In this document: piece after piece, positions 9,327 through 58,577 of the stretch
How the letters are laid out: each line of letters opens with the position of its first letter
Position numbering within the stretch: the stretch's first letter is position 1
From: Hahella ganghwensis DSM 17046
GTDB taxonomy: Bacteria; Pseudomonadota; Gammaproteobacteria; Pseudomonadales; Oleiphilaceae
NCBI RefSeq assembly: GCF_000376785.1
Contig: NZ_AQXX01000130.1
Span: forward strand, 1 to 64,000
Direction: 5' to 3'
DNA: 64,000 bases
Made by a program: the position numbers and the translations under genes
The notes under the pieces: generated by a model
Seen by the model: only the letters and a program-made list of their open reading frames with translations
What the model was told of the DNA's origin: nothing
The model's database searches: none

Positions 9327-9366
9327 TGCGAGTTCCTTTACAAACCTAAATCTGTTGACTAGGCTT

Positions 9367-9390: not shown

Positions 9391-9480
9391 GCCTTGGGTG
9401 CTCGCATGGCTTGCTCATGCTGGCGCTGTCCGGTCATTGTTGGCGCAATGGCCGGTCGCCTTCTTTCTTCCGAGGTGCTT

Positions 9481-37556: not shown

Positions 37557-40055
37557 CTACGCTGCGTCATTCTCTTCAAAGTCGAACAGGGTGGGGGTCT
37601 GGTGTTCTATCTCGGCCTGTTTCAGGTACTGAACACCGTCAAAGAAATAATCTGAATTCAATTCGCTAGCACGACCTAAGCGCCCGAGTTTTACCGCCAT
37701 ATACGGTACAGTCATCAGCCCCCCAAAGGGGTCATAGACGGTCTCATCAGGGTTGCTGTATCTGGTTATCAGTCGCTCGACTATATCCAGCTGTAGGGGG
37801 CACACGTGGTTTTGTAGGCCCTTCTGGGTCTGCTTACCGTTAAGAGTTCGCATCCTGTTTACGTCGTGCCAAACGTCATCAGAATGACTGCCTGGCGCCA
37901 GGCTCATGAAACTGGAAGGGAGGGCTCCACGGGCATCGAGAGCCTCGCCGACTCTTACGTGGTGCTGGTAGTCGTAAATGTTGTGCAGACTAAACTCGGT
38001 GAAGATCTTTGCCAGTTTGTCTGGCCCGTAGCCGGCCATCTCTTCAGGGTCCAGAAGACGGTTGCCACTGGAGCGCCAGAAAGCATGTGCATCCACCTGC
38101 CAGCGTGCCCTGGAGTAATCGGCCTTTTCTTTGGTGACTGGGACATCTGCGTAGCCCTTGGTTCTGTTTGTCTGAGGCTTCCTGAACAACAAAACATACT
38201 CGGGCGAACCTACACCCATCTTTGTGCCGTCCTTGCATTGCTCTGACCACCCCAGCCGGTAAGTCTGGTTGTTTTCCCGTACAACATCGGTAACAACGGT
38301 GATCATCCCCATGTAGTCAAAACCATGCTTCTGTGCATGAAATATGGCTTCTGCATGAAAGGGGGAAACAGTTGGGGCACCAGCGCCTGTAACATTGCCA
38401 AACAGGATCCGGTCTTTAACGTGGCAGCAATACAGTCGACCAGGATTCAAAACCCTCAACAGTTCCGGCGTGAGGTAATCCATCTGCTCCCAGAAATGAT
38501 CATTGTTCTCTGTGTGGCCGAAATCGTTATAACTGGGCGTGTATTCGTAATGGTTGGCAAACGGAATACTGGTAATAACCAGGTCGACAGAATTGGTTTC
38601 CATTGACTGGGCTTCCTGGACGCAATCATTATTTGCTGCCAGATACCGCTCCCCACTTACTTCTACTCGCTCGACACCGATAGTGCGTTTCAGAGTCTCG
38701 GCCATCTCCAAATTGCTCAGGCCGTACTTTTTAACAATGGCTGTCATCTTCTCCACCATCTCATCGTGATTGCGCCATTTCTCCAAGAGTATCCGGAGGA
38801 TCTCCCGCTCGGAGTCGGCGTAAATGATGTGGACCTCACAGGTGTGGGTCTGTAGGAATCGATAGATCCGGTGAACCGCCTGAATGAAGTCGTTGAACTT
38901 GAAGCCAATGCCGACAAATATTTCCTTGTGGCAATGGCGCTGGAAGTTACAGCCGGATCCGGCAATAACCGGTTTTGTAGACAGGTATTTGTACTTGCCA
39001 TCCTGGAAGTCGATGATGCGTTGTTCCCTCTCATCTAAATCGAGGTTCCCGTAAACATCCTTACAACCCGGTACCGCTTTGTTTATCGCGTGACGCTCAG
39101 ATTCTTGGTCATGCCATAGGACAAAATGGCTATCAGGATCCTGCTCGAGTATCTCGGACATTTTCGCAACTCGGAGGGGGAGGGTGTCTCGCTTCTCCCT
39201 GGCAGCATCTTGGAGACTCAAAGCCGCATCTTTGAACATCTCATGCTGGCCCCACTTATCAGTACCGGCATCAGAATGGTCTGTCTTCACCTCGTGATAG
39301 ATGACTTTCAGTTCTGGCAGCACATACCCATCGTCTGAAAAGCCGAGATCCGAAGGTCGATCAATGAAGAGTGCCCAGCTGCTGATCCAGAGCCAGAATT
39401 CCTCTTCTTTGTGTGGGTATATGGTTAGATTGTTAGCCTTGGTGCTATCACGCTGGAAGAACCGGGTAAGGGCCTGGCCAGTGTCCATGATCCCCAGGAA
39501 ACCAGCGTAATGGATAAGCTCTTTATACCTGTTCGGGCTGGGTGTCGCGGTTGCAACGTACTTGAACCTGACGCCATCAAAGAGCGGCAAGAATTCCTGG
39601 TAAGTCTTCGATCCGTATGATCGCAGGATAGATGCCTCATCCAGGCTGGCAGCATCAAACAAGGTAGGGTTGAGTTTTCCTTCCCGGATACTTTCATAAT
39701 TGGTCAGATAGATTCCATCGCCGTCGATTTCTTTATCGGATTGGATAAACCTGATCTTAATTCCTAGCATTGCAGCATCGCGCTTGAACTCCTGACGGAC
39801 ACCTAAAGGGGCACATATCAGAGCCTTTCCGCCCCCGAGACACACTAACAGCAGCCGAAGTACTTCCAGCTGTACAACGGTTTTACCGAGACCAAACTTA
39901 GCGAATAGTGCGCGACATCCCCCCTTAACAGCCCAGACCACCATGGCTTTCTGGTGGGGCTTCAGAATTGGATTAACATCTGCAGGGGAGATATCGAAGC
40001 CGGTTGAAACCGCCAGCTTAATTTTCCGCTTAATGAAGTCGATGTATGCGCCCAT
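37557..40055 (-). CDS. Helicase-DNA methyltransferase fusion protein
   Basis: 832 residues from the ATG at 40055 (GAAGG 8 bases upstream); an earlier ATG at 40094 would overlap the MmcB-like gene. The N-terminal half is a superfamily 2 helicase: FGLGKT (54-59), SLDEAS (about 136), VATATPSPNRY, and QAVHRIYRF. The C-terminal half is a beta-class DNA methyltransferase: TSIPF near 493 in place of the usual TSPPY, then DPFGGLMTV near 774. Such fusions occur in proteobacterial phages, where they may modify DNA ahead of restriction or aid replication. Which base is methylated is unknown. Confidence 0.8.
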   Translation of the reverse strand: MGAYIDFIKRKIKLAVSTGFDISPADVNPILKPHQKAMVVWAVKGGCRALFAKFGLGKTVVQLEVLRLLLVCLGGGKALICAPLGVRQEFKRDAAMLGIKIRFIQSDKEIDGDGIYLTNYESIREGKLNPTLFDAASLDEASILRSYGSKTYQEFLPLFDGVRFKYVATATPSPNRYKELIHYAGFLGIMDTGQALTRFFQRDSTKANNLTIYPHKEEEFWLWISSWALFIDRPSDLGFSDDGYVLPELKVIYHEVKTDHSDAGTDKWGQHEMFKDAALSLQDAAREKRDTLPLRVAKMSEILEQDPDSHFVLWHDQESERHAINKAVPGCKDVYGNLDLDEREQRIIDFQDGKYKYLSTKPVIAGSGCNFQRHCHKEIFVGIGFKFNDFIQAVHRIYRFLQTHTCEVHIIYADSEREILRILLEKWRNHDEMVEKMTAIVKKYGLSNLEMAETLKRTIGVERVEVSGERYLAANNDCVQEAQSMETNSVDLVITSIPFANHYEYTPSYNDFGHTENNDHFWEQMDYLTPELLRVLNPGRLYCCHVKDRILFGNVTGAGAPTVSPFHAEAIFHAQKHGFDYMGMITVVTDVVRENNQTYRLGWSEQCKDGTKMGVGSPEYVLLFRKPQTNRTKGYADVPVTKEKADYSRARWQVDAHAFWRSSGNRLLDPEEMAGYGPDKLAKIFTEFSLHNIYDYQHHVRVGEALDARGALPSSFMSLAPGSHSDDVWHDVNRMRTLNGKQTQKGLQNHVCPLQLDIVERLITRYSNPDETVYDPFGGLMTVPYMAVKLGRLGRASELNSDYFFDGVQYLKQAEIEHQTPTLFDFEENDAA

Positions 40056-40056
40056 T

Positions 40057-40914
40057 TCAACGACCTTCATTCTCAACAATTGGACGGAGCTCATTCTCTG
40101 CCCATCTGAGGCTGTCCTTGAGCTGAGTTACAATCGTTTTACAAGTGCGTACTCTTGAATCAACATTGATGCGGTTCTCAGTAAGTCGGAGGGCGCGTAG
40201 AAGGCTGTACTCGTTGTGATTCTCTTCAGGCAATCCTAATGCAGTGCACAATCTCTTGATGCCATCAGAAAGCTCTTTCTTGCTGCGTTCGGCAGATTCA
40301 TTGGCGCTCTTTAAGAGAATGTCCGCTCGCTGTTTTGCTCCATTAAGGATTGAATCAACCTCAGACTGGATGTCTCTTAGGTTGGCTCTCGCAGCGACCA
40401 GATCAGTAATTGTCTGTGCGACATCCTCGCCAAAGTGTTCGCGGACCTTACAGTTTAGTAGGTAGGTGTTGATTGCCTTGGTTCGATGTTTTGAATCCGC
40501 TCGCTCAATACCATCGATGAGAAGCTTGAGCATTGTGTCTTGAGGTAGAGTGCATGGGTTCAAGACTGGTGCTTTGAGGCTCTTCCAGCCGTTTTCACCA
40601 CGGATCATTAGACCGCAGGCAGCTGGCAGATCTTGTTTTGAAATCAGCCCTTGGGGAACGCAGAAATACACACCACAACTGAATTTCAGATAGCTCTGCC
40701 ATTTGCCACTGGTAACGTCAGACCGGTAGTCAGACACGGACACCTTAATCTCATAAGATAGGGGTTTGGGGTTGGAATAGCTTTTCCGCATAACATAGAC
40801 GTCGGGGCGCTTACTCCCGGATGGCCCCATCTGCATATCGCGCCACACCATCTTTTCTGGTGTGTTCAGATGTTCAGCGAGATCATTCAACAGGTCGTCA
40901 TGCTTCCATTTCAT
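40057..40914 (-). CDS. MmcB-like nuclease domain with coiled-coil extension
   Basis: 285 residues from the ATG at 40914, which overlaps the preceding stop. Residues 1-100 match the MmcB/DUF1052-type PD-(D/E)XK-like domain: SKRPDVYVMRKS, SYEIKVSVSDYRSDVTSGKW, CGVYFCVPQGLI. The D and E-x-K residues could be catalytic. The last 130 residues are helical coiled coil (SEVDSILNGAKQRADILLKS, NESAERSKKELSDG). Members are linked with DNA repair. It precedes the helicase-methyltransferase gene in the same operon, 1 bp apart. Confidence 0.75.
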   Translation of the reverse strand: MKWKHDDLLNDLAEHLNTPEKMVWRDMQMGPSGSKRPDVYVMRKSYSNPKPLSYEIKVSVSDYRSDVTSGKWQSYLKFSCGVYFCVPQGLISKQDLPAACGLMIRGENGWKSLKAPVLNPCTLPQDTMLKLLIDGIERADSKHRTKAINTYLLNCKVREHFGEDVAQTITDLVAARANLRDIQSEVDSILNGAKQRADILLKSANESAERSKKELSDGIKRLCTALGLPEENHNEYSLLRALRLTENRINVDSRVRTCKTIVTQLKDSLRWAENELRPIVENEGR

Positions 40915-42187: not shown

Positions 42188-42418
42188 TTATGCAGCATCA
42201 CTCTCATCCAGCTCCGGAAACACAGCTTCATACTTCGATACAACGCGATCTGGAGTTACCTCCTTTGTCGCTGCTTCAAGTCGTTCTGCCAAATGCCGGG
42301 ACGGATTCCGGTGATAGCCAGCTAATTGCTTTAGATAGTTCACGGATGTATCAGCCAGAGCGGCCACCTTTGCCCGTTCGATATCTGTTGCAGATGAAAA
42401 CCAACTTTTCACATTCAT
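42188..42418 (-). CDS. Cro-like repressor
   Basis: 76 residues, one helix-turn-helix: DIERAKVAALADTSVNYLKQ at residues 12-31, followed by a hydrophobic helix and a short tail. It is divergent from the CI-like gene; the operator A (42434-42450) lies just upstream of its start. Expected to bind the same operators and shut down the repressor when the lytic path is chosen. The -35/-10 of its promoter would overlap operator A (TTGCCT, 17 bases, TGCTAA on the minus strand). Confidence 0.75.
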   Translation of the reverse strand: MNVKSWFSSATDIERAKVAALADTSVNYLKQLAGYHRNPSRHLAERLEAATKEVTPDRVVSKYEAVFPELDESDAA

Positions 42419-42433
42419 TTAATTTTGCTCAGT

Positions 42434-42502
42434 GTTAGCATTTCGCTAATAAGCATAAGGCAAATTCAAATGGCCCGCAAGAAACATTATCATTTTGCTA
42501 AC
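42434..42502. promoter_or_regulatory. OR-like operator cluster (two sites)
   Basis: Two 17-bp pseudo-palindromes of the form GTTAGC-N5-GCTAAC: GTTAGCATTTCGCTAAT at 42434-42450, between cro and cI, and ATTATCATTTTGCTAAC at 42486-42502, inside the first codons of cI. A third weaker match may exist at about 42417-42433. The same motif recurs three times at 44533-44596. Confidence 0.75.
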
Positions 42503-43153
42503 TCAAAACCGGGTAGGGATGAACGGACCTTGGCAACTATTCACGAAACGAGATTAAAGAATCTGCTGCACCTATATAATCTGCATGGCGGTGCTGCCGG
42601 TTTGGCCCGAAAGGCTGATGTCAGTGAGGGATATTTGAGACAGATCACGTCCGAGAAGGGTGGGAGAAATGTCGGAGGCCAGTTGGCCAGAAAAATTGAG
42701 AGCAACTTGGAGCTCCCTAAAGGCTGGATGGATTCAGGCCACGGTGATGGTGGAGCGAGCAAGGTAGAAGTAGAGGAGGTAGTGGCAGTTCCCTTCTATG
42801 ACTTTAACGATGTATTAAACAGGGAAAATATAGAGCCCAGCCGGCACGAGTTCTTTTTCGCCAGCAAATTGACTGAAGGCGTGTTCGCTACTCAGTTCTT
42901 TGGTGATTCCATGTTGCCCAGGTCCGGAATGGGTATTTTCGATGGGACTATCGTATTCGTAGAACCAGCAATTGAGCCAAAACACCTCTCAATCGTTCTC
43001 GCTGTCGTGAATAACAAAGCACTGATTCGTGAATATAAACAAGATGGGGCAGACATCATTCTTGCCCCGCTGAATGATTCCTATAAGCCTGTCGAACTCG
43101 GTGATGGTGAGGTCGTTGGCGTTATAAGGCAAACAAGGGGCACCATCAAATAG
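42470..43153 (+). CDS. CI-like phage repressor (HTH plus S24 domain)
   Basis: 227 residues from the ATG at 42470 (AAGG upstream); a longer version without ribosome site is less likely. An N-terminal helix-turn-helix (AAGLARKADVSEGYLRQITS, residues about 42-61) is followed by an S24 peptidase-like dimerisation domain with GDSM (Ser147) and a Lys in NNKALIREY (Lys183), the Ser-Lys pair of LexA/CI. I see no clear Ala-Gly cleavage site. It would keep the prophage silent and be inactivated by RecA during the SOS response if autocleavage works. The operator at 42486 lies within its first codons. Confidence 0.9.
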   Translation: MARKKHYHFANSKPGRDERTLATIHETRLKNLLHLYNLHGGAAGLARKADVSEGYLRQITSEKGGRNVGGQLARKIESNLELPKGWMDSGHGDGGASKVEVEEVVAVPFYDFNDVLNRENIEPSRHEFFFASKLTEGVFATQFFGDSMLPRSGMGIFDGTIVFVEPAIEPKHLSIVLAVVNNKALIREYKQDGADIILAPLNDSYKPVELGDGEVVGVIRQTRGTIK

Positions 43154-43159
43154 GTGCCC

Positions 43160-43336
43160 TCATAGATTTTTGATAAACTCCTGTAATTCCTCCCTGTTAA
43201 ACGTCGACTTCCCTTTCTGTTCCTGTTCCCGCAAGTATTCCAGGTCATAATCAACCCAGACTTCCTTGCCGTGTTTAATGACCGTGACCCCTTCAGCAAA
43301 TGGCAATGCTATCAGGGCTCTCTTATCAGAGTTCAT
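43160..43336 (-). CDS. Small immunity-region protein
   Basis: 58 residues (MNSDKRALIALPFAEGVTVI at the front), ATG at 43336 with GGAAG at 7 bases. Charged, with a C-terminal helix (REELQEFIKNL). It runs convergently into the cI-like gene (6 bp between stops) and is the last of three minus-strand genes between the two operator regions. Short length and its place in the rex-like interval suggest an accessory of lysogeny. Not recognised. Confidence 0.55.
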   Translation of the reverse strand: MNSDKRALIALPFAEGVTVIKHGKEVWVDYDLEYLREQEQKGKSTFNREELQEFIKNL

Positions 43337-43361
43337 TCATCCACTTCCGTGCAGGTATTTA

Positions 43362-43730
43362 TTATTTCCTTGTCTTTATCCGTTGGCGTGCATCAACTGC
43401 TGGGTTGTAGCTGGCGATTGTGAACCTAACGTTAAAGAAATTGGCAAGTGTGTTGGTGTAGCGGAAACATATCGCCCTACCATCAACATATTGCTGTAGG
43501 TATGCCCGCGAGGGCGTACATTCTTTGATAAAGGCTTGATATTCCTCTGCTGTGCATCGATCTTTGAGGTCTGATTCCTCAAACTGATCTATGACAAATT
43601 TCTTGATCTCAGCAGTCAAAGTCCTAAATGACTTCCGTTTGGTGTACTGCTCGATATAGGAATGTAGAGCTTGATCAAGTTCGGCGGTTGTCTCAAAAGA
43701 CAGGAAAGATTCCTTTAGTGCTAACCCCAT
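43362..43730 (-). CDS. Hypothetical immunity-region protein
   Basis: 122 residues, ATG with AAGGA at 9 bases. Alpha-helical and mixed charge (AELDQALHSYIEQYTKRKSF, TLTAEIKKFVIDQFEESDLK), ending in a basic RQRIKTRK. No membrane segment. It follows the fatty-acid-hydroxylase gene on the same strand, with a GGCCACT/AGTGGCC hairpin (43765-43780) in the gap, and precedes the 58-residue gene. Function unknown. Confidence 0.55.
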   Translation of the reverse strand: MGLALKESFLSFETTAELDQALHSYIEQYTKRKSFRTLTAEIKKFVIDQFEESDLKDRCTAEEYQAFIKECTPSRAYLQQYVDGRAICFRYTNTLANFFNVRFTIASYNPAVDARQRIKTRK

Positions 43731-43821
43731 GTCTGCTTATCCTTGATGTATTTATTTTACGGGTGGCCACTCAAGTGGCCTAGTCCGTTTTCAGTATCTC
43801 CATAGATAAAACAAAGTCAAG

Positions 43822-44523
43822 CTAACGTAACATTAAATATCGTTCCGAGTTGTGGCTGTCTGCAAATCCCAATCGGCCATTCCAGTCATATCCTAGGTTG
43901 ACTGTGCCAAACACTGTATCCCATAGGAATGCCACGTAGTTATACCGGTGTCGCCCGTACTCATGATGAACTAGATGCATTTCAGGGGTTTGGATGATAT
44001 AGCCGATCCAACGGACACGATCCGGGGTTCGAATATTGCTGTGGTGGTAGCATTCTAAGCAGCCCTCGATGACCAAGGCCATAACTATGGTATCTATAGA
44101 TGCATCCATCATCACCGCCAGACTGACAATGACAAAAGTGTTTGCAGCGTACTCTATCGGGTGCTTATAGAAGGCGACTGAGGTTTCCATGTGGGAGGGG
44201 GAGTGGTGAAAGCGGTGGATGTATTTCCAGAACCAGCGATTACTATGTTTTACCCTATGTACCCAGTAATTTGTGAACGAGTACACCAAGTAAAATACAA
44301 TTCCATCCTGCCAATTAAACTGAACTGGGTTCAATAAATCGAGATAAAGAGTCACCCATAAGTTTGCCCAAACCAATGCAAAGGTGTTTACCAACATCCA
44401 AATTTTTGCATAACCATCAGCTCTATCAATCTTTCTTATCCCCTTAATTCTCTCCAAAACCACAAAAAACACAAAAAAAGCCACTTGAAAAATGCACAGA
44501 TATCCAAGCATTTGAGTCTCCAT
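43822..44523 (-). CDS. Fatty-acid hydroxylase/sterol desaturase-family membrane enzyme
   Basis: 233 residues. Hydrophobic segments are at about 5-23, 42-63, 74-90 and 128-155. The three di-iron histidine boxes of the family are complete: HRVKH (89-93), HRFHH (103-107) and HLVHH (183-187), with ECYHH near 157-161. Members hydroxylate or desaturate lipids in the membrane using O2 and di-iron; related bacterial enzymes act on fatty acids, carotenoids or sterol-like lipids. It lies between the two operator clusters, divergent from the early leftward operon. Substrate unknown. A lipid-modifying enzyme could change the envelope of the lysogen, an inference from location. Confidence 0.85.
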   Translation of the reverse strand: METQMLGYLCIFQVAFFVFFVVLERIKGIRKIDRADGYAKIWMLVNTFALVWANLWVTLYLDLLNPVQFNWQDGIVFYLVYSFTNYWVHRVKHSNRWFWKYIHRFHHSPSHMETSVAFYKHPIEYAANTFVIVSLAVMMDASIDTIVMALVIEGCLECYHHSNIRTPDRVRWIGYIIQTPEMHLVHHEYGRHRYNYVAFLWDTVFGTVNLGYDWNGRLGFADSHNSERYLMLR

Positions 44524-44532
44524 TTTATTGAT

Positions 44533-44596
44533 ATTAGCAAAATGCTATTGACGAAGTGTTATCATAACGCTAACGTATGTTTATCATATTGCTAAC
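44533..44596. promoter_or_regulatory. OL-like operator cluster with pL promoter
   Basis: Three 17-bp operators: ATTAGCAAAATGCTATT (44533-44549), GTTATCATAACGCTAAC (44558-44574) and TTTATCATATTGCTAAC (44580-44596). A promoter, TTGACG (44548-44553), 17-bp spacer, TAACGT (44571-44576), is overlapped by them, reading into the plus-strand operon. The same cluster could also silence the divergent hydroxylase gene. Confidence 0.78.
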
Positions 44597-44685
44597 GGTT
44601 ACGAATTGTTAGCGACATGAATAACTAAAGGTAAGTGATAGTTCGTCGTGTGGCACCCACCGATGCCCGGAAAAGGAGATGGACC

Positions 44686-44841
44686 GTGATTCCCAAGATG
44701 AGCGCCCAAGACTACGCAAGAAAAAAACGGGACAAACTGATCGCCCAGATCGAGAAAACAAAAAATACAAGTGGACTGGCTCAGCAGTATTACCAAGCCG
44801 AACTAGACACCCTCCAGCGCTATTTGAAGAGGTTTTCATGA
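44686..44841 (+). CDS. Small basic protein, first gene of the pL operon
   Basis: 51 residues from a GTG at 44686, which has AAGGAG 7 bases upstream. An Arg/Lys-rich front (SAQDYARKKRDKLIAQIEKT) resembles the arginine-rich motif of lambdoid N antiterminators. The position (first gene of the leftward operon, with a terminator at 45416-45447 downstream) is also that of N. No clear boxA/boxB was found, so an N-like function is only a candidate. Its stop overlaps the ATG of the next gene. Confidence 0.45.
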   Translation: MIPKMSAQDYARKKRDKLIAQIEKTKNTSGLAQQYYQAELDTLQRYLKRFS

Positions 44842-45152
44842 GCACCAGCACCATGGAATACCAGCAAGACCGAGCAAATCAGGCATATGTAGACCAAGTG
44901 GTCTGGGGGCATTACCTGGAGATGTTCGAAACCGGGAGAACAGTGGTTAACGACACCGTTATTACCCGGTCGCTGATATACCAAAACAACGAGCCCGGTT
45001 TGCATGAGTATCTGGACAACCTGCTCAAGGGGGTGATCTCTCCCACCCAGTACACCACTGGCGTTACAGAGCTCATCAAACAGGCAAGTTTCAGATTGAT
45101 CAAAGAGGCCTTGGAAGCATTTCCGGCTTCGCTGGTCGAGCAAGCCTTCTAA
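44838..45152 (+). CDS. Hypothetical early phage protein
   Basis: 104 residues, ATG overlapping the previous stop (ATGA), GAAGAGG ribosome site. Tyr-, Gln- and Leu-rich helices (RANQAYVDQVVWGHYLEMF, YTTGVTELIKQASFRLIKEA). No known motif. Coupled with the small basic gene upstream, it belongs to the first part of the pL operon. Confidence 0.5.
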   Translation: MSTSTMEYQQDRANQAYVDQVVWGHYLEMFETGRTVVNDTVITRSLIYQNNEPGLHEYLDNLLKGVISPTQYTTGVTELIKQASFRLIKEALEAFPASLVEQAF

Positions 45153-45164
45153 AAGGAACTGAGT

Positions 45165-45398
45165 ATGAATATGAGGCATTTGGCAAATGAGTTTAGAGAG
45201 CGGCACGGCATGACAGGAAAAGGTGGCGTGGTCGTTTTCTTTAACGGTACCGCTGAAGGGTGGATGAATGAACTTCGTGACCCTCATGCCTGGGTGCCAG
45301 GATGCATCGCTATCGATGAGACGGGCAATACCTGGGAATCCGTAGGCGGTAACGATTATGACGGCGCAAAAGAGTGGAGCGCCATTTCAAATAACTAG
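45165..45398 (+). CDS. Conserved small phage protein, unknown
   Basis: 77 residues, ATG 12 bp after the previous stop. GKGGVVVFFNGTAEGWMNEL followed by DPHAWVPGCIAIDETGNTWE and VGGNDYDGA is a pattern I associate with a short conserved protein in early operons of proteobacterial phages. No catalytic motif can be named. It is the last gene before an internal terminator. Confidence 0.55.
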   Translation: MNMRHLANEFRERHGMTGKGGVVVFFNGTAEGWMNELRDPHAWVPGCIAIDETGNTWESVGGNDYDGAKEWSAISNN

Positions 45399-45415
45399 TA
45401 TTTCATTGGCGGTGA

Positions 45416-45447
45416 ATCCCCCCAGTTTGCAGTCGGGGGTCTTTTTA
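45416..45447 (+). terminator. Internal rho-independent terminator in the pL operon
   Basis: CCCCCC...GGGGG with a 12-base loop is followed by TCTTTTT. Then comes TACAGGAGAA, the ribosome site of the SPFH gene. An almost identical terminator-plus-leader is at 49194-49235. Confidence 0.75.
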
Positions 45448-45462
45448 ATACAGGAGAAGAGA

Positions 45463-46326
45463 ATGACTACAAAGCAAATCGTTAAATGGGGAGCCACATC
45501 ACTTGGGGTGATTATCGGGCTGTGTCTGTTATGGGCCACTTTCTACACAGTTGATGAAGGCCACGTAGGGATCGTTAAGCGTTTCGGCGAAGCTAAGGAG
45601 CAGGTACCACCAGGTCTGCACCTCAAAATGCCCATAGCTGATTCGGTTGAGATTATCGAGGTCCGGACACGTAAGAGCACCGAGCGCCTTCCAGCTGCTA
45701 CCAGTGAGCAGATGCCGGTGGATGCTGTTGTTAGCGTGAACTGGACTGTCAATAAGGCCAGCGCCTTTGACTTGTTTGTTGACTATGGCGGGCTGGATCA
45801 GTTTGAGGACAGGATTCTGGATACCCGGATGAAGTCCGCCACTAAATCAGCCATCAGCAAATTCACTGCTGAAGAGCTGATCATTAACCGGGCAAAGGTC
45901 ATCCACGATATCGCCGTCGCCCTCAATACCACGATGTCAAATTTCCCGGTAACGCTGGATTCCGTGCAAATTGACAACATAGGCCTGCCTAAAAAGTACT
46001 TGGCTTCGATTGAGACCAAGCAAACAGAAAAGAATCTGGCGGATGCAGAGAAACACAAGCTCGACCGATTCGAAACCACCGCGCAACAAACGGTAAAAAC
46101 CGCAGAAGCTGAGGCGAAGGCCACCCGCGAACGGGGAGATGCTGACGCATACGCCCTGAAAGTGAAAGGTGAAGCTGAGGCCGCTGCTATCGAGGCCAAG
46201 GCTCAGGCGCTGCGTGACAACCCGTTGATAGTCCAGCTAACGCTTGCCCAGAAGTGGGACGGAGCTCAGCCCAGGATGATTACTGGAGACAGTGGTCTGA
46301 TTCTTCAGATGCCCCAGCCAGAGTAA
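45463..46326 (+). CDS. SPFH/HflC-like membrane protein
   Basis: 287 residues, ATG at 45463 with AGGAGAAGAG upstream. One N-terminal membrane helix (about 10-29), then the SPFH (Band 7) core: VDEGHVGIVKRFGEAKEQVP, PGLHLKMPIADSVEIIEVRT, FPVTLDSVQIDNIGLPKKYL. A long Ala/Glu-rich coiled coil (about 200-265) completes it. It is prohibitin/HflC-like: such proteins form rings around FtsH and influence CII stability in lambda hosts. It sits right after a terminator, in a cassette of its own. A role in tuning host proteolysis or the lysogeny decision is inference. Confidence 0.85.
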   Translation: MTTKQIVKWGATSLGVIIGLCLLWATFYTVDEGHVGIVKRFGEAKEQVPPGLHLKMPIADSVEIIEVRTRKSTERLPAATSEQMPVDAVVSVNWTVNKASAFDLFVDYGGLDQFEDRILDTRMKSATKSAISKFTAEELIINRAKVIHDIAVALNTTMSNFPVTLDSVQIDNIGLPKKYLASIETKQTEKNLADAEKHKLDRFETTAQQTVKTAEAEAKATRERGDADAYALKVKGEAEAAAIEAKAQALRDNPLIVQLTLAQKWDGAQPRMITGDSGLILQMPQPE

Positions 46327-46331
46327 ACCCC

Positions 46332-46496
46332 ATGAAAACGGTCGGTGTAGCAATTATCTGGCTCTTGGCTTCACTGGCCGCAGGTTGGATCACTGAGCAG
46401 GACTATCAGCACAGCAAAAGCTCATGGGAGTCCTTCTGCGAGAACCAGCCAATGTCAGAGCAGTGTAAAGAGTTCGTTAAACCGGAGGGTGAATGA
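46332..46496 (+). CDS. Small membrane/secreted protein after SPFH
   Basis: 54 residues. The front (MKTVGVAIIWLLASLAAGWI) is a single membrane segment or uncleaved signal. The rest (about 35 residues) contains two cysteines (WESFCENQP, MSEQCKEF) that may form a disulfide outside the cytoplasm. It starts 5 bp after the SPFH stop and its stop overlaps the next gene. It may be an accessory of the SPFH protein. Confidence 0.5.
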   Translation: MKTVGVAIIWLLASLAAGWITEQDYQHSKSSWESFCENQPMSEQCKEFVKPEGE

Positions 46497-46675
46497 TGCA
46501 AAAAGTATCAATGCCAGATTGGGTAACGGTATCTGATCTTGCCAAGTTCGCTAGTTCACAGAAATGTGACCTGGAATTCAAAGATGGGCATTACTGCATT
46601 GTTGAAAAAAGCAATGTTGTACGCCTGCCAGCTAGACCTCGCGTTGTGTCGCCACAGCCGAATGGAGCTGCATGA
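46493..46675 (+). CDS. Small hypothetical protein
   Basis: 60 residues; starts ATGATG (46493 or 46496) after GGAGG. Basic, hydrophobic in the middle (DGHYCIVEKSNVVRLPARPR). Its stop overlaps the start of the RecB-like gene. It belongs to the recombination block by position. No family recognised. Confidence 0.45.
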   Translation: MMQKVSMPDWVTVSDLAKFASSQKCDLEFKDGHYCIVEKSNVVRLPARPRVVSPQPNGAA

Positions 46676-47484
46676 TGTCTGATCCATTTCGCATTCGCGC
46701 AAGTTCCTGGGGTTCTCTCTTTGACTGTGCCCACAAATGGGAGGGAGAGCACCTATTAGGCATGTGGAAGCCGTACAGCCCTCGGGCGTTGCTTGGTACA
46801 GCGATTCACGCCAGTACAGCCGCATTCGATGACGCCAGGGTGAACCACTTCGACCTAACACCAGATGACACTGCTGGGATTTTCGTTGAAACGCTGCGTG
46901 ATCCAGGAAAGGACGTCGACTGGTCCACCTCTGATATCCGGATCCGGGATGCTGAGCGCATCGGGCTGACTCTCCACACAAGGTATTGCCTGGAAGTATC
47001 GCCGAATTACCAGTTTGAAGCGGTCGAGATGGAGACCGTTCCACTTGTGATCGATTGCGGCCACGGTATCCAGATTCAGTTAACGGGCACTCTGGACAGG
47101 TCACGGATCAGGAAGACAACCAACGGTATCGGTATCAGTGACCTGAAAACTGGTAAGGCCTCGGTCCAGCAGGGCAAGGCAAAGACCAAGGGTTTCAAGG
47201 CTCAGTTAGGCACCTATGAGCTGTTGTATGAACACACATCCGGCAAGCAGGTAACTGAACCCGGGGAGATTATCGGATTGAAGACATCTGGTTCTCCCGA
47301 TATCGGTACCGGCGAGATTCATGGCGCCAAAGAAACCCTGATAGGGACCGATTCATCACACGGCCTGATTGAGTACGCAAAGGAGTACTTCAGAACCGGC
47401 CTATTTCCACCTAACCCATCCAGCTATCTGTGCGATGAGAAGTACTGCGCCAGATGGTCAACCTGCAAGTTTAAAGATCAGTAG
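46672..47484 (+). CDS. RecB/Cas4-like exonuclease with Fe-S cysteine cluster
   Basis: 270 residues. It has PD-(D/E)XK superfamily features (LTGTLDR, then GISDLKTGKAS with catalytic D and K) and cysteines at 19 (FDCAHKW), 254, 259 and 265 (LCDEKYCARWSTC). This is the spacing of the 4Fe-4S cluster in Cas4/AddB-type nucleases. It lies directly upstream of RecT and would act as the 5'-to-3' exonuclease of the pair, like lambda Exo/RecE. Start overlaps the previous stop. Confidence 0.82.
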   Translation: MMSDPFRIRASSWGSLFDCAHKWEGEHLLGMWKPYSPRALLGTAIHASTAAFDDARVNHFDLTPDDTAGIFVETLRDPGKDVDWSTSDIRIRDAERIGLTLHTRYCLEVSPNYQFEAVEMETVPLVIDCGHGIQIQLTGTLDRSRIRKTTNGIGISDLKTGKASVQQGKAKTKGFKAQLGTYELLYEHTSGKQVTEPGEIIGLKTSGSPDIGTGEIHGAKETLIGTDSSHGLIEYAKEYFRTGLFPPNPSSYLCDEKYCARWSTCKFKDQ

Positions 47485-47498
47485 CACTGGAGCGTTAA

Positions 47499-48419
47499 AT
47501 GGCAACTCAACTTTCCGAATTAAAGCAGCCAGGGGGCAACAATCCACTGGCTACTCTGAACCACTACTTTACGGCACATAAAGGCCAACTTGCTGCTGCA
47601 CTACCAAAACATCTGAATCCTGATCGCATGGCAAGACTGGCAATGACTTGTTTCAGCCAGAGCAAAGATCTCGCGCTGTGTAATCCCAAATCCATATTTT
47701 CCTCCATTGTTGTCGCCTCCCAGCTGGGGCTTGAACCAGGTGTAGACGGGCAAGCCTATCTGGTGCCATACAAAGGCACATGTACCTTGGTCCCTGGCTG
47801 GAAAGGCTATGTGGATCTGGTGAGCCGATCTGGCAGGGGGACGGTCTGGACGGGTGCGGTATTCCAAGGCGATCAGTTCGATTACCAGCTTGGTGACTCC
47901 CCGTATGTGCGCCACAAGCCAGGCGATGAGAACGACGAAAGCATGCTTACCCATGTATATGCCATCGGGCGCGTAAAGGGGGCAGAGTGGCCGATCATAG
48001 AAGTCTGGTCAGTGAATAAAGTCGTTAAGCATCGCGACAAACACAACAAAGTCGGCGGTAAACACTACAGCTATAAAAATTTCGAGATGTATGCCCGGAA
48101 AGTGCCACTCATGCAGGTTCTGAAGTACATGCCGAAATCTGTCGAACTCACCGCTGCCATGGAGATAGATACCGCAGCCACTGAGGGCAGAGGATCTGAG
48201 TATATCAATGGCGAATTCGTAATCCTAGACAACGAGCCACCAGAGGCTGAGCCAGCAGAAAGCGCCCCTTCACCAAATAACCCCAGCCCCAGCGATAGAA
48301 AGGATTCGAGCGGAGCTGCCCCAGAACAGGCTGAGCGGGATGCCCAGCCGGCAGCTACCGAGACCGTCGCTAAACCCGGAAAAATGACCACCAAGCATCT
48401 GATGGGGGATATCGAATGA
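47499..48419 (+). CDS. recT: RecT-family single-strand annealing protein
   Basis: 306 residues. The conserved core runs from about residue 30 to 230: NPDRMARLAMTCFSQSKDLA, SIFSSIVVASQLGLEPGVDG, AYLVPYKGTCTLVPGWKGYV, and VELTAAMEIDTA. The C-terminal 60 residues are a Pro/Ser/Ala-rich tail of low complexity. RecT pairs complementary single strands made by the partner exonuclease. It is followed by an ATGA overlap to the next frame. Confidence 0.93.
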   Translation: MATQLSELKQPGGNNPLATLNHYFTAHKGQLAAALPKHLNPDRMARLAMTCFSQSKDLALCNPKSIFSSIVVASQLGLEPGVDGQAYLVPYKGTCTLVPGWKGYVDLVSRSGRGTVWTGAVFQGDQFDYQLGDSPYVRHKPGDENDESMLTHVYAIGRVKGAEWPIIEVWSVNKVVKHRDKHNKVGGKHYSYKNFEMYARKVPLMQVLKYMPKSVELTAAMEIDTAATEGRGSEYINGEFVILDNEPPEAEPAESAPSPNNPSPSDRKDSSGAAPEQAERDAQPAATETVAKPGKMTTKHLMGDIE

Positions 48420-48730
48420 TCATCATGATTCTGGCCGTTCTGCTCGGGCTGGAATTTCCAATAGTCCACATCTTGTCACGCTCGGAGTACCAGGGGCAGT
48501 GGACAAGCAGAAGCAGTGCTGCACCTGCAGATCGTGCAGTAACCGATAAGGCCCTGGCGCAGGAGACCGGATCCTGTTTGCTGATACACCTCAATGTTAA
48601 GTGTGATCTAAAACTCGCGGATGTGACTGATCAACAACCGTACTCAAGCATATTAAAAGGTTCTTTAAGTAAGCCAGTTGTGTTGTCCGGAGTCAGGACC
48701 GGGCAGCACAACCCTAAAACCTGGAGTTGA
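48416..48730 (+). CDS. Weak reading frame after recT
   Basis: 104 codons. The ATG overlaps the recT stop, as is common in this operon, and the first 20 residues look like a membrane segment (IIMILAVLLGLEFPIVHIL). The rest has unusual composition, and the end lies on top of the strong hairpin at 48677-48712. It may be a short real gene whose C-terminal part is overrun by regulatory sequence, or not coding. Confidence 0.3.
   Translation: MIIMILAVLLGLEFPIVHILSRSEYQGQWTSRSSAAPADRAVTDKALAQETGSCLLIHLNVKCDLKLADVTDQQPYSSILKGSLSKPVVLSGVRTGQHNPKTWS
48677..48712 (+). promoter_or_regulatory. 14-bp RNA hairpin with two G-U pairs before 48733
   Basis: GTTGTGTTGTCCGG (48677-48690) and CCGGGCAGCACAAC (48699-48712) pair completely as plus-strand RNA if two G-U pairs are allowed; on the other strand they would be A-C mismatches. 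The loop is 8 bases. No T run follows, so it is not a classical terminator. It lies 21 bp before the next start codon. Confidence 0.5.
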
Positions 48731-48732
48731 AG

Positions 48733-49185
48733 ATGAGCGATACAGAAGAAACCACACAAACAGAACAGACCCAGCTCAATGCAATTGAGTGGCTTGGCCA
48801 TGACCTGATGGCCATTGTTCTGGATGAAATGAAAGCCATGCCAGATGTGTGGCAAAAGCTTCCCGAATTTGAGCAAGGGGATGTGATCGACCGCGTTAGG
48901 GAGCGTGTTACAGAAGCTGCAGGTAAAGCTATCGCCCTGATCTCATCGAATGGATGCATGAAGGTGTCAGGGGTGCTGGAGAGCGTTCAGATCAAAGACA
49001 AAATCAAAGCGGTTTTGATCGTCGATAGGACAAATCAGTCAGACGCCCTTCAGGAATTATACGAATCAGCCGCTCAGCCTTGCCTGATAGTGATGGCAAC
49101 CCCTGATGCAGTACTTGGGGGGATGGATCAGATTCAAGCAGATCCAGATCAGCATGATCTCGAACTGGATGACGAAGCAGCGTAA
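48733..49185 (+). CDS. Acidic hypothetical protein of the recombination block
   Basis: 150 residues from the ATG at 48733 (GGAG 7 bases upstream). Helical and acidic (TQLNAIEWLGHDLMAIVLDE, EFEQGDVIDRVRERVTEAAG), ending in an Asp-rich tail (DQHDLELDDEAA). Ends before a terminator at 49194-49224. Highly acidic early phage proteins are sometimes DNA mimics or nuclease inhibitors, but no family assignment can be made. Confidence 0.5.
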   Translation: MSDTEETTQTEQTQLNAIEWLGHDLMAIVLDEMKAMPDVWQKLPEFEQGDVIDRVRERVTEAAGKAIALISSNGCMKVSGVLESVQIKDKIKAVLIVDRTNQSDALQELYESAAQPCLIVMATPDAVLGGMDQIQADPDQHDLELDDEAA

Positions 49186-49193
49186 GCCACGAT

Positions 49194-49224
49194 TCCCCCT
49201 TTGATTGTGTGGAGGGGGCTTTTT
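49194..49224 (+). terminator. Second internal terminator in the pL operon
   Basis: CCCCCT...AGGGGG with a 12-base loop is followed by CTTTTT. Next comes TACAGGAGAAATAA, nearly the same leader as after the terminator at 45416-45447. A transcript must read through to reach the Rad50-like ATPase, methylase and integrase genes. Confidence 0.75.
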
Positions 49225-49239
49225 CTACAGGAGAAATAA

Positions 49240-49449
49240 ATGATCACTACGGATTTTTATTTGAAGCTGATTGACCCGACCGGGCGTCATAGTCCAGTTA
49301 TCACCCATCACCGTGTCTGGAATCGAGATCGCTTTATAGCAGCCCAGAAGCGTTACCACGAGGACAAAAAGCGTGGTGATGAAATTCGAGTGGTTTCTGA
49401 GGTTAGCGAAACCGAATACCTGGCACTGAAGCGTGGGAAGGCTGCTTGA
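49240..49449 (+). CDS. Small basic hypothetical protein
   Basis: 69 residues, ATG with AGGAGAAATAA upstream. The protein is basic and strand-helix (DFYLKLIDPTGRHSPVITHH, RFIAAQKRYHEDKKRGDEIR). It is the first gene after the second internal terminator, and its stop lies 1 bp before the next start. Not recognised. Confidence 0.5.
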   Translation: MITTDFYLKLIDPTGRHSPVITHHRVWNRDRFIAAQKRYHEDKKRGDEIRVVSEVSETEYLALKRGKAA

Positions 49450-49450
49450 T

Positions 49451-49654
49451 ATGAAGAAGCTAACCGCAGATGAGTTCAACGAGAAGTTCCACGAGGGACA
49501 GCCTGTCTATTTCGATAACGATTTCGGGCAAGCCGAAGAGTGCTACCTCAGATCTGAAGCCTGGGAACTGGGACATGGTGAACCGGTAGTAAAGGTCACC
49601 GGTCGGACTGGGGGAGTGTTGTGCGAACGGATCAGACCAAGGGTGGAAGGATGA
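49451..49654 (+). CDS. Small hypothetical protein
   Basis: 67 residues from the ATG at 49451, 1 bp after the previous stop. TADEFNEKFHEGQPVYFDND and EPVVKVTGRTGGVLCERIRP suggest a small beta-barrel-like fold. The end overlaps the ATPase gene's start by 4 bp. No motif allows a functional call. Confidence 0.45.
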   Translation: MKKLTADEFNEKFHEGQPVYFDNDFGQAEECYLRSEAWELGHGEPVVKVTGRTGGVLCERIRPRVEG

Positions 49655-51375
49655 AAATATCTCACATCAAAGTCGAGAATTTCCTGGGCATCCAGCGCGT
49701 AGATGTAGAGTTGGTATCGCCTATCACTGTGTTTGCCGGTCCCAACGGTGCCGGTAAGTCATGTTTTCAGAACGCCATCCGGAGCGCGCTCACTGGCTTC
49801 ATGCCTCGCATCGATAAAAAGAAAGAGGCTAAGCAACTGGTGAAGGATGGGGCCAAAAAGGGATCTGCAGAGGTCACTATCAATGGTGAGAAAAGCACTA
49901 TTGAAGTGCCATCACTAAAAGGTGTTCACGGTTCTGTATTCGATAACCCGGCCATCAGTTACGTTATCAATCCCGCCAGTTTTGCTGGTGCCAGTGCAGA
50001 TGAGCGGCGGACATCTCTATTTGAGATAACCGGTGTGAATCCAGACACCAACAACATCAAAGAGCGCATGGAGCAGCGTGGTTGTGACATGAAACTGGCA
50101 GCCTACGTAATCCCCTTGTTGAGATCTGGCTTCCCTGAAGCCCACAAAGAAGCCAAGGATAAAGCCAGCGAAGCTCGGGGGGCGTGGAAATCTGTCACCG
50201 GTGAGACATACGGGAGCCAGAAGGCTGAGGGGTGGGAGCGTGAGTGTCCCGCTGCGGTCGATGAAGACCGCCTGGAACAGATGGAGAACCGAATGGCCGT
50301 AGTTCTCCATGAGGTGGGGGAGAAGGGTAGAAAGATTGGCGGATTGCAGGGCTTGAAACTCCAGGCACAGGATGAGCAGGCCATAGTGAGCAAGCTCCAA
50401 GAAATTGCCGATCAGTATGAGACCATTCATACCCAATATCTTGCAGCGCACAAAAGGAGCTCAAAGTGTGCGTCTGACCTGAACACCCTGAAAAGAAAGG
50501 TCATGACCGGGGATGATCTAACCATCCTTGAATGCCCTCACTGCCAAGGCAAGGTCGCCCATGTATCAGATAGCTTGGTTGCTTACCAGGATCCTGCAGA
50601 TGTAGATCCAGCCGTACTGGCTGAATACGAGGAACTGAAACAGGAAGCTGAAAGAGCATACGAACTGGCAAATGAGCTATCCCTGGAATTGGACCGATCA
50701 AAGCGCGCCCAGGATGAGCTGAGTAATCGACCCAGAATAGAAGTAGTGACGGACGAACAGATCGCAGCCTTGGATGCTGAGGCTTCTGCTCTGATGGAGG
50801 AACATGATCTGCTTCACGAGGATCTGAAAGCTGCAAGGGCAGAAAAGCTGGAGTATGAACTGGCGGTCAATGCCAACCGTCGAGCTGCTGAAAGCCACGA
50901 ATTGGTGAAAGCCTGGAGTGAAATTGCTGATGCTCTGGCACCTGATGGCATCCCGAGCGAGATCCTTGGGGAGGCAATCAAGCCAATAAATGATCGTCTG
51001 AAGGTTTCAGCAGCAGGTACCGAGTGGATGACGCCACGTATTCACGCCGATATGAGCATCACCGCAGACGGCAGACTCTACCATCTGCTTTCTGAGTCCG
51101 AGCAATGGCGTGTCGATGTCCTGATCGCCGAAGCATTTAGTCATGTGAGCGGGCTCAAGTTCCTGGTGATCGACAGATTCGACGTTCTCCACCCATCACT
51201 ACGCTCAAGCCTGATTAATTGGCTGGCCGACATAGCAGGATCTGGGCAGATCGACTCCGCAATTGTCCTGGGAACTCTCAAGAAACCGACCGCCACCATC
51301 GAGGGCGTTATGTCCTCTTTCTGGATTGAAGGCGGCGTCCTAACTACTCAAAAACAGGAGCAACAAGCAGCATGA
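49651..51375 (+). CDS. Rad50/SbcC-like ATPase with zinc hook
   Basis: 574 residues from the ATG at 49651. It shows KISHIKVENFLGIQRVDVEL typical of SMC-like ATPases and Walker A AGPNGAGKS (29-37). A central coiled coil contains CPHC (295-298), the two-cysteine zinc hook of Rad50. A Walker-B-like FLVIDRFDVL lies near 504-513, where the catalytic acid of the usual DE pair is replaced by Arg. The ATPase would hold or process DNA ends together with the exonuclease encoded immediately after. The short coiled coil makes it a minimal Rad50 relative. Confidence 0.85.
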   Translation: MKISHIKVENFLGIQRVDVELVSPITVFAGPNGAGKSCFQNAIRSALTGFMPRIDKKKEAKQLVKDGAKKGSAEVTINGEKSTIEVPSLKGVHGSVFDNPAISYVINPASFAGASADERRTSLFEITGVNPDTNNIKERMEQRGCDMKLAAYVIPLLRSGFPEAHKEAKDKASEARGAWKSVTGETYGSQKAEGWERECPAAVDEDRLEQMENRMAVVLHEVGEKGRKIGGLQGLKLQAQDEQAIVSKLQEIADQYETIHTQYLAAHKRSSKCASDLNTLKRKVMTGDDLTILECPHCQGKVAHVSDSLVAYQDPADVDPAVLAEYEELKQEAERAYELANELSLELDRSKRAQDELSNRPRIEVVTDEQIAALDAEASALMEEHDLLHEDLKAARAEKLEYELAVNANRRAAESHELVKAWSEIADALAPDGIPSEILGEAIKPINDRLKVSAAGTEWMTPRIHADMSITADGRLYHLLSESEQWRVDVLIAEAFSHVSGLKFLVIDRFDVLHPSLRSSLINWLADIAGSGQIDSAIVLGTLKKPTATIEGVMSSFWIEGGVLTTQKQEQQAA

Positions 51376-51965
51376 GATGCATTTTTGCGTATGACACCGA
51401 AACAACTGGAATCCCAGACTGGAAATCGCCATCAGGTGCTGAGCACCAGCCCCATATTGTTCAACTGGGTGCCGTTCTGGCCGACCTGGACAGCAGGAAG
51501 ATCATTAAAACCTTGGATCTGATCATCAAGCCAGATGGTTGGACCATCCCACAAGAAACTATCGACGTTCATGGGATCACAAATGAGCAGGCCATGGATG
51601 AGGGCATCCCAGAAGATGAGGCACTAAACCAGCTGCTTTCGCTCTGGGGTGGCCATCTCCGTGTGGCTCACAATCGAACGTTTGACCAGCGGATCGTCCG
51701 GATTGCCTGTAAGCGCTACAGCACGGAGGCGGTAACCGAAGCATGGGCAGACAAAGATAGCCATGAATGCTCGATGTTGATGGCCAAGCCGATCATGCAA
51801 CTGACGCCAAAGAATCGCTATGGGTTCAAGCCACCAAAGCTGGAGGAAGCCTACCGGTTCTTCACCGGGAATGAACTCCAGAACGCTCACAGCGCGCTGC
51901 CGGATGCGATGGGGTGCCTTGAGGTCTATTTCGGGATTCAGGATCACCTGAAGAAAGCTGCTTAA
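51372..51965 (+). CDS. DnaQ-like DEDD 3'-5' exonuclease
   Basis: 197 residues. Exo I: FAYDTETTG with Asp8 and Glu10. Exo II: AHNRTFDQR with Asp105. Exo III: NAHSALPDAMG with His173 and Asp178 (DEDDh type). The whole RNase T-like fold is present and no polymerase domain is attached. Coupled by overlap to the Rad50-like gene, the pair resembles an SbcCD-like unit in which a DEDD nuclease replaces SbcD. It probably trims DNA ends for RecT-mediated recombination. Confidence 0.9.
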   Translation: MRCIFAYDTETTGIPDWKSPSGAEHQPHIVQLGAVLADLDSRKIIKTLDLIIKPDGWTIPQETIDVHGITNEQAMDEGIPEDEALNQLLSLWGGHLRVAHNRTFDQRIVRIACKRYSTEAVTEAWADKDSHECSMLMAKPIMQLTPKNRYGFKPPKLEEAYRFFTGNELQNAHSALPDAMGCLEVYFGIQDHLKKAA

Positions 51966-52024: not shown

Positions 52025-53695
52025 TTGAGTACAGTAGAAATAACGCACTTCCATTTATTCTGCGGCTGTGGCGGGGGCGCGAAAGGGTTTAACCAAGCCA
52101 ATCCCAGAATAACCGGACTTGAAGGTAAGTATCGTTGTCTTGGTGGTATTGATGTTAACCCGTTAGCGTTGGAAAACTTCAAGTTGCTGACCGGTGTCGC
52201 TGGCACCGTAATGGACCTCATGAACCGTGATCAATACATTGCTTTTCATGGCTCTGAACCCCCGCCAGAGTGGAGGGAGGCGACTCCAGAAGATATCCGG
52301 AAAGCGGCTGGTAATGAACGACCAAACATAGGCTTCACATCATCGCCATGTAAAGGTTTATCTGGGCTGCTGTCACAAAAGTTGAGCCTTACTCCGAAGT
52401 ACCAAGCTCTCAACGAGTTAACGTTGCGTGGTACTTGGCTAATGATGGAAGCCTGGGCAGACGATCCCCCAGATATGTATCTCTTTGAGAACGTCCCCCG
52501 GATACAGAACAGAGGTCGACATCTACTCGACAAAATAAATGCCATCCTAAAGCATTTTGGTTATGCCGTATCCGAGACTGTTCATGACTGTGGGGAGCTT
52601 GGAGGTCTCGCGGAGAGTCGCAGGCGCTTCTTGTTAGTTGGTCGCCACACCGAAAAAGTACCGCCATTCCTGTATGAGCCGCCAAAACGCTCACTTAAAC
52701 CGGTTAGCTCTGTACTGGAAAAAATGCCAATGCCAGGCGATGAAACAGCCGGTCCAATGCATAGAATCCCGAATCTACAGTGGAAAACATGGGTACGATT
52801 GGCCTTTGTCGAGGCCGGAAAAGATTGGAGAAGTCTCAATCGACTTAACGTTGAAAACGGTAATCTAAAAGATTACCTGATCGTGCCGGAATACAGAGCT
52901 GGGTATTGCGGCGTGAACAAATGGGAGGAGACTGTGGGCACAATCGCTGGCAGATCAAACCCAACAAATGGAGCTTTCTCAGTAGCTGATCCTCGATACG
53001 CCGGCAAAGACTATGGTGCATACGGGGTGGTTGATTACGGCTCACCTACTGGCACGATCACCGGCCAACGATCACCCGGGCAAGGTCGATTTGCAGTTGC
53101 GGATCCGCGCCCCACCAACCCATTCAGGGGCGGAAAATATCGTATCACCCGATTTGATGAGGCTGCCGGGACGATCATTGCAGGCAGCACTACCGGCCAG
53201 GGTGCATTCGCTGTCGCTGATCCCCGACCAAATCTACACCGCAGTAAAGGTGATAATTACCTAACAGCCGGTCACTACGGCGTAATACCTTGGGACGCAT
53301 CCACAGGCGCTGTATCAGCTGCCGCTGGACACGATAACGGGCGCTGGTCTGTGGCTGATCCAAGACTGCCAGAACCCAACGACAAGCTAATAGCCATGAT
53401 CATCAGCATGGACAACACCTGGCATAGACCATTCACCACGCTTGAGCTGGCTTGTATCCAATCCCTGATCGATCCAGAGGAAGACATCATCCAGTTTGCA
53501 GGCAAGAGCGACAGCGCCCACAGGGAACAGATCGGCAATGCGGTCCCCAGTGCAGCCGCCAAGGCCATTGCAGAAACCATGGGGGAAACCCTTCTGTTGG
53601 CCTGGACAGGGGAAACGTTTGTGCTGTCAGCCAATTCAGTATGGGTCAAGCAAATCAAGGCGGGGCTTTCTCTGCCGCAGGAGGTGACTGCATGA
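52025..53695 (+). CDS. C5-cytosine DNA methyltransferase with repeated target-recognition region
   Basis: 556 residues. TTG start, with GAGG 8-9 bases upstream; no better ATG exists near the conserved front. Motif I LFCGCGGGAKGF (11-22), motif IV with catalytic Cys109 in TSSPCKG, ENV motif (E155), ESRRRFLLVG (about 197-206) and C-terminal REQIGNAVP. Between about 295 and 448 lie four repeats ending in VADPR (321, 359, 398 and 444), each with a G-T-I-x-G-like core. These occupy the target-recognition place. It makes m5C; target unknown. No nuclease partner is present, so it is a solitary, anti-restriction type enzyme. The next gene overlaps by 4 bp. Confidence 0.88.
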   Translation: MSTVEITHFHLFCGCGGGAKGFNQANPRITGLEGKYRCLGGIDVNPLALENFKLLTGVAGTVMDLMNRDQYIAFHGSEPPPEWREATPEDIRKAAGNERPNIGFTSSPCKGLSGLLSQKLSLTPKYQALNELTLRGTWLMMEAWADDPPDMYLFENVPRIQNRGRHLLDKINAILKHFGYAVSETVHDCGELGGLAESRRRFLLVGRHTEKVPPFLYEPPKRSLKPVSSVLEKMPMPGDETAGPMHRIPNLQWKTWVRLAFVEAGKDWRSLNRLNVENGNLKDYLIVPEYRAGYCGVNKWEETVGTIAGRSNPTNGAFSVADPRYAGKDYGAYGVVDYGSPTGTITGQRSPGQGRFAVADPRPTNPFRGGKYRITRFDEAAGTIIAGSTTGQGAFAVADPRPNLHRSKGDNYLTAGHYGVIPWDASTGAVSAAAGHDNGRWSVADPRLPEPNDKLIAMIISMDNTWHRPFTTLELACIQSLIDPEEDIIQFAGKSDSAHREQIGNAVPSAAAKAIAETMGETLLLAWTGETFVLSANSVWVKQIKAGLSLPQEVTA

Positions 53696-58526: not shown

Positions 58527-58577
58527 TGGTAGCTAGGGGCGGATTCGAACCGCCGACCCCAGCATTATGAGTGCTGT
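58527..58577. repeat. attR, right-hand copy of the attachment core
   Basis: Identical to 3896-3946 over 51 bp and forms the 3' part of the intact tRNA-Met. Since the tRNA's 5' half (58578-58603) lies outside the prophage on this side, the phage-provided core has restored the gene. Confidence 0.92.

Follow-up and report, generated by a model that had tools for sequence, protein, structure and literature searches.

A putative lipid hydroxylase gene and its conserved small partner between the immunity operators of a Hahella ganghwensis prophage

A prophage in the genome of Hahella ganghwensis DSM 17046 carries, between the two operator clusters of its lambda-like immunity region, a gene whose product is, by its sequence, a di-iron-type membrane hydroxylase. 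Together with the small gene behind it, the hydroxylase gene makes up a conserved two-gene module that also occurs outside phages; the conservation of the pair at other loci, together with the grouping of the paired hydroxylases in one clade, indicates that the phage captured this module and that the hydroxylase is not a host gene. To the fuller reading, that the locus is captured two-gene moron cargo of the prophage, in which a membrane-lipid hydroxylase under phage operators changes the cell envelope, we give about an even chance. The partner family, its pairing with FA_hydroxylase and the chromosomal module went unnoticed in the sequence-only reading that preceded this analysis. All positions without a locus handle refer to the window, the whole 64,000-nucleotide stretch that was analysed (contig NZ_AQXX01000130.1, positions 1 to 64,000).

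The prophage occupies 3896-58577 (about 54.7 kb) and is bounded by identical 51-bp att repeats at 3896-3946 and 58527-58577, the second copy lying inside a tRNA-Met gene (58527-58603, minus strand). It is seemingly complete, with PHROGs matches for the integrase (57352-58485) and for terminase, portal, capsid/major head and tape measure proteins, and IMG/VR contains the same prophage. The early left, pL-like operon (44635-51965, plus strand), which strand and spacing suggest to be a single operon, comprises small ORFs and genes for a Band_7/HflC-like protein (45463-46326), an exonuclease (46672-47484), RecT (47499-48419), an AAA protein (49621-51375) and a DNA polymerase exonuclease-like protein (51372-51965), all on the plus strand. 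The Band_7 protein resembles HflC/HflK (NCBIfam hflC E 2e-15, below the cut-off) and might act through FtsH on CII stability and the lysis-lysogeny choice. The same prophage also has three DNA methyltransferase genes (37557-40094, minus; 8547-9437, minus; 52025-53695, plus); their products are a long protein that is helicase-like in its N-terminal part and has an N6/N4 methylase at the C-terminus, an enzyme of the D12 class and a C5-cytosine methyltransferase.

The immunity region contains a cI-like repressor gene with an S24 autoproteolysis domain (42470-43153, plus strand; the ORF opens at 42425, and the ATG at 42470 is preferred); the ORF, 42425-43153, matches Peptidase_S24 (E 3e-13) and a PHROG of transcriptional repressors (E 3e-18). 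The gene at 42188-42418 (minus strand) is assigned as a cro-like early regulator by position only; its PHROGs match is to a family of unknown function (E 1e-6), and it has no Pfam match. Operators of 15 bases with the form TTAGC-N5-GCTAA, at one mismatch or fewer, were found at five sites in the window (42435, 42487, 44534, 44559 and 44581) where about 1.3 per 64 kb would be expected, an enrichment that is partly circular since the half-site of the scan (TTAGC, 5-base gap) was derived from these same sites. The clustering is not circular: all five sites fall in either an OR-like cluster around the cI start (42435-42501, with a weaker site at 42450) or an OL-like cluster (44534-44595) between the hydroxylase unit and the left operon, which are divergent.

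These sites, with the S24 repressor on one side and the left operon on the other, bear out the sequence-only reading, made before this analysis, in placing the hydroxylase gene between OR-like and OL-like operators, divergent from the left operon and with operators (44534, 44559, 44581) at its own start. The two small genes said to follow it are likewise there on the same strand, namely the 122-aa partner (43362-43730, minus), which belongs, in diverged form, to a small family of HTH-like proteins encoded behind FA_hydroxylase genes, and an uncharacterised 58-aa ORF (43160-43336, minus), found in only 1 of 117 genomes, its own. The parallel that had been drawn with the interval where lambda keeps rexAB holds for the place, from repressor to left operon, but not for the orientation, as the unit lies on the strand opposite to cI and converges on it, with a terminator-like hairpin (43137-43160) between the two.

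The hydroxylase gene (43822-44523, minus strand) is an ORF of 233 aa, of which residues 75-207 match FA_hydroxylase (PF04116, E 2.2e-26; 93.3 bits, above the Pfam curated cut-off of 31); the second ATG, at 44511, is the probable true start because a GGAG lies just upstream. The complete set of histidine boxes attributed to it earlier was confirmed. HRVKH has the form HX3H (H89/H93), HRFHH and HLVHH have the form HX2HH (H103/H106/H107 and H183/H186/H187), and these residues plus H161 and H192 are invariant across 40 aligned relatives. The AF2 model has a pLDDT of 92.6, and a second-look alignment with the hydroxylase domain of Scs7p gave Z 6.3 and rmsd 4.7 over 170 residues, a Z score within the range, under 8, for which the tool warns of chance. 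Foldseek of the model against the PDB returned no significant match (best E 7.9), and the 40-row hydroxylase profile found nothing among PDB sequences at E up to 1. Among predicted viral structures the matches were mostly giant-virus desaturases and hydroxylases, 16 of them at E <=0.001. Neither the hydroxylase nor the 122-aa partner is covered by a model in NCBIfam.

Similarity to a host chromosomal gene, which the sequence-only reading had set against its own proposal, proved low: the five other FA_hydroxylase matches of the host are 25-31% identical to the prophage gene and are placed elsewhere in the tree, on which grounds a host-gene origin was rejected, and the nearest known relative is 47% identical (37-47% for the relatives together). 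A common phage gene was also rejected, as PHROGs gave no match and no convincing relative was seen in phage records. A search of 50,697 phage records gave 10 matches at E up to 10, of which eight stood at E 7 and two were significant (CAKLQH020000004.1 and H2). Of these two, the former (L151), named Acinetobacter phage MD-2021a, was inspected; it has salicylate hydroxylase, MFS transporter and NahR genes, which are bacterial, and is probably a bacterial contig filed as phage. The IMG/VR search returned the prophage itself and seven distant short forms only. Short FA_hydroxylase-like genes (145-165 aa) lie on viral contigs (L050, L052-L056) whose neighbouring genes have a T4-like/marine look, and no repressor was found near any of the seven IMG/VR loci, judged by eye and with a repressor profile. 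Linkage of FA_hydroxylase genes to repressors in other phages, which had been put forward as a check, did not emerge: the phage records gave no convincing relative, and the S24-repressor profile, run over 101 other fetched hydroxylase loci, found only L057, itself a member of the profile. Among titles and abstract openings in the open-access literature, no report of a phage or prophage fatty acid hydroxylase or sterol desaturase was recognised.

Relatives in bacterial genomes are where the pairing becomes apparent. Among the best 80 of 583 hydroxylase relatives in genome contigs, the five most similar (L057-L061; best-segment identity 39-46%) have a small gene directly behind the hydroxylase, as does L038 (relative in G183). 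The window's 122-aa protein matches this family by tblastn (E 3e-4 and 4e-4) and by hhalign (probability 94.8, E 5e-8, 41 columns), and a profile that did not include it recovered it from whole genomes at E 7.8e-4; used alone as a query against 196 genomes, the window partner retrieved nothing but itself, so that a profile was needed for the others. Three genome surveys, which overlap, were made. Among 390 genomes of the order the partner profile found G183, itself a profile member, together with the window; among 369 of the class it found the window again plus G669, G687 and G827, no one of these four having gone into the profile. With a wider profile, 398 genomes of the phylum yielded G183 and, once more, the window. 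In each of these five genomes the partner stands behind a hydroxylase, and it was never found apart from one. As L061 and the G669 locus are apparently one contig (3,377 bases), nine distinct module loci are counted including the window, the other eight all gammaproteobacterial. The partner is absent from 75 further, less similar hydroxylase loci (L062-L136), some of which end close to the gene, and no relatives of it were found in IMG/VR, phages or plasmids. The two genes of each module are on the same strand, with a gap of 91 bases in the window versus 3-277 in the other modules, and the nine hydroxylases that have the partner group together in a single clade (SH-aLRT 99; quick tree, 116 rows).

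The window partner is 21-28% identical to the family, and its model is poor (pLDDT 54). The L059 copy gives HTH_3 at E 4e-4, below the cut-off, and a PADLOC control-protein model at E 5e-4, with less in the other copies; the HTH match is absent from the L057, L058 and window copies. We treat the 122-aa partner as a diverged HTH-like protein, going by sequence, with putative DNA binding.

In the chromosomal copies a different kind of control is predicted. The hydroxylase leaders of L057, L058, L059, L060 and L038 fold far better than their shuffles (z -4.3 to -5.7, with 0 of 200 shuffles as good; z -4.2 to -5.7 in a uniform window), and, in the controls, z <=-3.5 was reached by 10 of the 286 background genes and by 3 of the 73 other hydroxylases. 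Long, nearly perfect stems in these five leaders (L057 7940-8025; L058 7925-8015; L059 and L060 7940-8000; L038 10279-10340) extend over the Shine-Dalgarno region or the initiation codon, the starts for folding having been chosen by a Shine-Dalgarno rule under which some may be wrong. The five copies represent three lineages, with hairpins that are unrelated in sequence; in the Marinomonas-type copies (L059, L060 and L038) mean start-region pairing is 0.61-0.64 versus a background median of 0.55. No strong start hairpin was seen in L139, L140, L061 or the window. It seems that a hairpin in the RNA, covering the start, restrains expression of the chromosomal hydroxylase, perhaps as an RNA thermometer or through CsrA. 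Within the subclade of the phage gene, chromosomal members have a start masked by predicted folding, and the phage member has operators instead.

The surroundings of the chromosomal modules are varied. The L143 (G827) module has an intact xerC on one side and, on the other, a 222-base copy of the xerC 3' end that is 94% identical (8311-8532 and 10515-10735 of that locus, at a distance of 2,204 bases), as if it had inserted at a gene's 3' end; no recombinase gene was seen in the insert. The L060 module lies between 108-base repeats (93.5% identical, 2,198 bases apart), and that of L038 between 213-base repeats, only at 75%. Direct repeats of at least 50 bases and 88% identity, 1.2-3.5 kb apart, occur in 5 of 93 loci: at the L060 and L143 modules, around hydroxylases without the partner in L092 and L125, and away from the hydroxylase in L106. 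The module loci L057, L058, L059 and L142 have no direct repeat beyond 13 bases, so that bracketing by repeats is suggestive without being characteristic of the module. The L057 module adjoins the genes for CsrA and for an S24 repressor, the latter divergent, and is set between genes resembling gcvP and panD; no phage structural gene was seen there. A PrtN-like pyocin activator protein is encoded downstream of the Terasakiispira module (L058 9734-10051; PF11112 E 9e-7), and genes that look response-regulator-like in sequence stand behind the module in L142 (8313-9035) and L061 (2094-2831).

In the window, the nearest operator ends 21 bases ahead of the hydroxylase ATG at 44511, and the presence of operators at the start of the gene makes it plausible that its expression is phage-controlled. 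Promoter-like sites, scored with assumed weights, were not above chance in number (7 found versus 6.1 expected). The best toward the left operon (44559-44587) exceeds the 97.5th percentile of random windows and lies within two operators; the best toward the hydroxylase (44612-44583) falls between the 90th and 97.5th percentiles, with its -10 hexamer inside one operator. Lambda CI activates PRM from an operator centred near -42. No candidate promoter here has an operator so centred, which makes repression the simpler reading; the arrangement of the operators suits a gene that is repressed in the lysogen no less than one that is expressed there.

Under the reading that we prefer, that of captured cargo, the FA_hydroxylase and its HTH-like partner would have entered the stretch between cI and OL, oriented against cI. 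With a non-haem di-iron centre and oxygen, the enzyme would hydroxylate a host membrane lipid, on the acyl chain or the head group, and the timing of its synthesis would be set by the phage repressor, given the overlap between its candidate promoters and the OL operators. It appears somewhat likelier that the gene is repressed in the established lysogen, its product being made early in infection and on induction, than that it is expressed in the lysogen. The RNA hairpin layer of the chromosomal relatives is absent from the phage copy, where the phage operators take its place, and the changed envelope may limit further infection or make the membrane fit for lysogeny or early infection. As regards the moron label, the unit has a strand of its own and a flanking hairpin, no relatives were found in phages, and the G+C content is 43-44% in the three genes (hydroxylase, 122 aa and 58 aa) versus 50% for the phage. 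No second phage with the same arrangement was found in phage records or IMG/VR.

Other accounts share parts of this evidence. The interval between cI and N is a mosaic diversity hotspot that in other lambdoid phages houses rexAB and bstA, according to excerpts of one study (PMC8585504), and this position, together with the membrane nature of the enzyme and the mobile, rare distribution of the module, fits a dedicated superinfection-exclusion or abortive-infection system that would be made in the lysogen and block other phages through a lipid change. We consider such a system unlikely, as no PADLOC model matches the hydroxylase or the window partner, the unit is not cotranscribed with cI, and its candidate promoters overlap repressor operators. 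The strong divergence of the partner and its lack of a detectable HTH match, the absence of the translational hairpin of the relatives, and the fact that only one such phage is known could describe a passenger, picked up by chance and now neutral or decaying in the phage; this we hold to be doubtful, given that both ORFs are intact and that the hydroxylase keeps all active-site residues at 37-47% identity to its relatives.

It is also conceivable, although very improbable, that the HTH-like partner is the useful part, serving as an extra cro- or anti-repressor-like factor, and that the hydroxylase came along with it. The family resembles Cro/CI HTH proteins in the L059 matches described above, the location is beside immunity genes, and L057 has an S24 repressor beside its module, but the window copy is without a recognisable HTH signal and the pair was never found apart in the surveys. 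The most far-reaching proposal, an undescribed mobile cassette of lipid hydroxylase and HTH-like regulator that spreads among the chromosomes of gammaproteobacteria, silenced by start hairpins and flanked by direct repeats of whichever genes it inserts into, and which the phage has wired to OL as an envelope defence or conversion switch, strikes us as improbable in that full form.

The known cases of surface conversion by phages mostly involve LPS sugars and exclusion proteins. If the captured-cargo reading is true, lipid hydroxylation by a prophage under lysis-lysogeny operators would be a new route of surface conversion, and the envelope of infected cells may change through a prophage hydroxylase gene. 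The module moreover defines an uncharacterised bacterial FA_hydroxylase clade with a putative built-in regulator and, in several genomes, a predicted masked ribosome-binding site; the conserved partner offers an experimental handle on the pair.

With regard to known systems, marine T4-like contigs and giant viruses have viral members of the same fold or family as the phage hydroxylase; the FA_hydroxylase-like genes on the phage contigs, unlike the prophage gene, are short (145-165 aa; 23-41% local identity) and have no repressor nearby. Scs7p, a solved FA_hydroxylase (PF04116), has the domain and histidine boxes, and seemingly the helix layout, in common with the phage enzyme, but is 18% identical to it; there is no close biochemical relative, and the partner-linked clade stands apart from the other sampled bacterial members. 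OlsE belongs to the fatty acid hydroxylase superfamily. It is described, in excerpts of PMC3972451, as an ornithine-lipid hydroxylase, and is a bacterial membrane-lipid hydroxylase, as is proposed for the phage enzyme. OlsB-type PF13444 proteins were detected in all five module genomes tested and also in the E. coli control, and are thus not specific; because the control also scores, their presence permits, but does not suggest, ornithine lipids. Lambda rexAB and BTP1 bstA likewise lie between cI and the left operon of a lambda-like immunity region. In lambda, rexAB is on the same strand as cI and cotranscribed with it. The bstA locus of BTP1 follows cI on the cI strand in the excerpted account (PMC8585504), whereas the hydroxylase unit begins at the OL-like operators and runs against cI.
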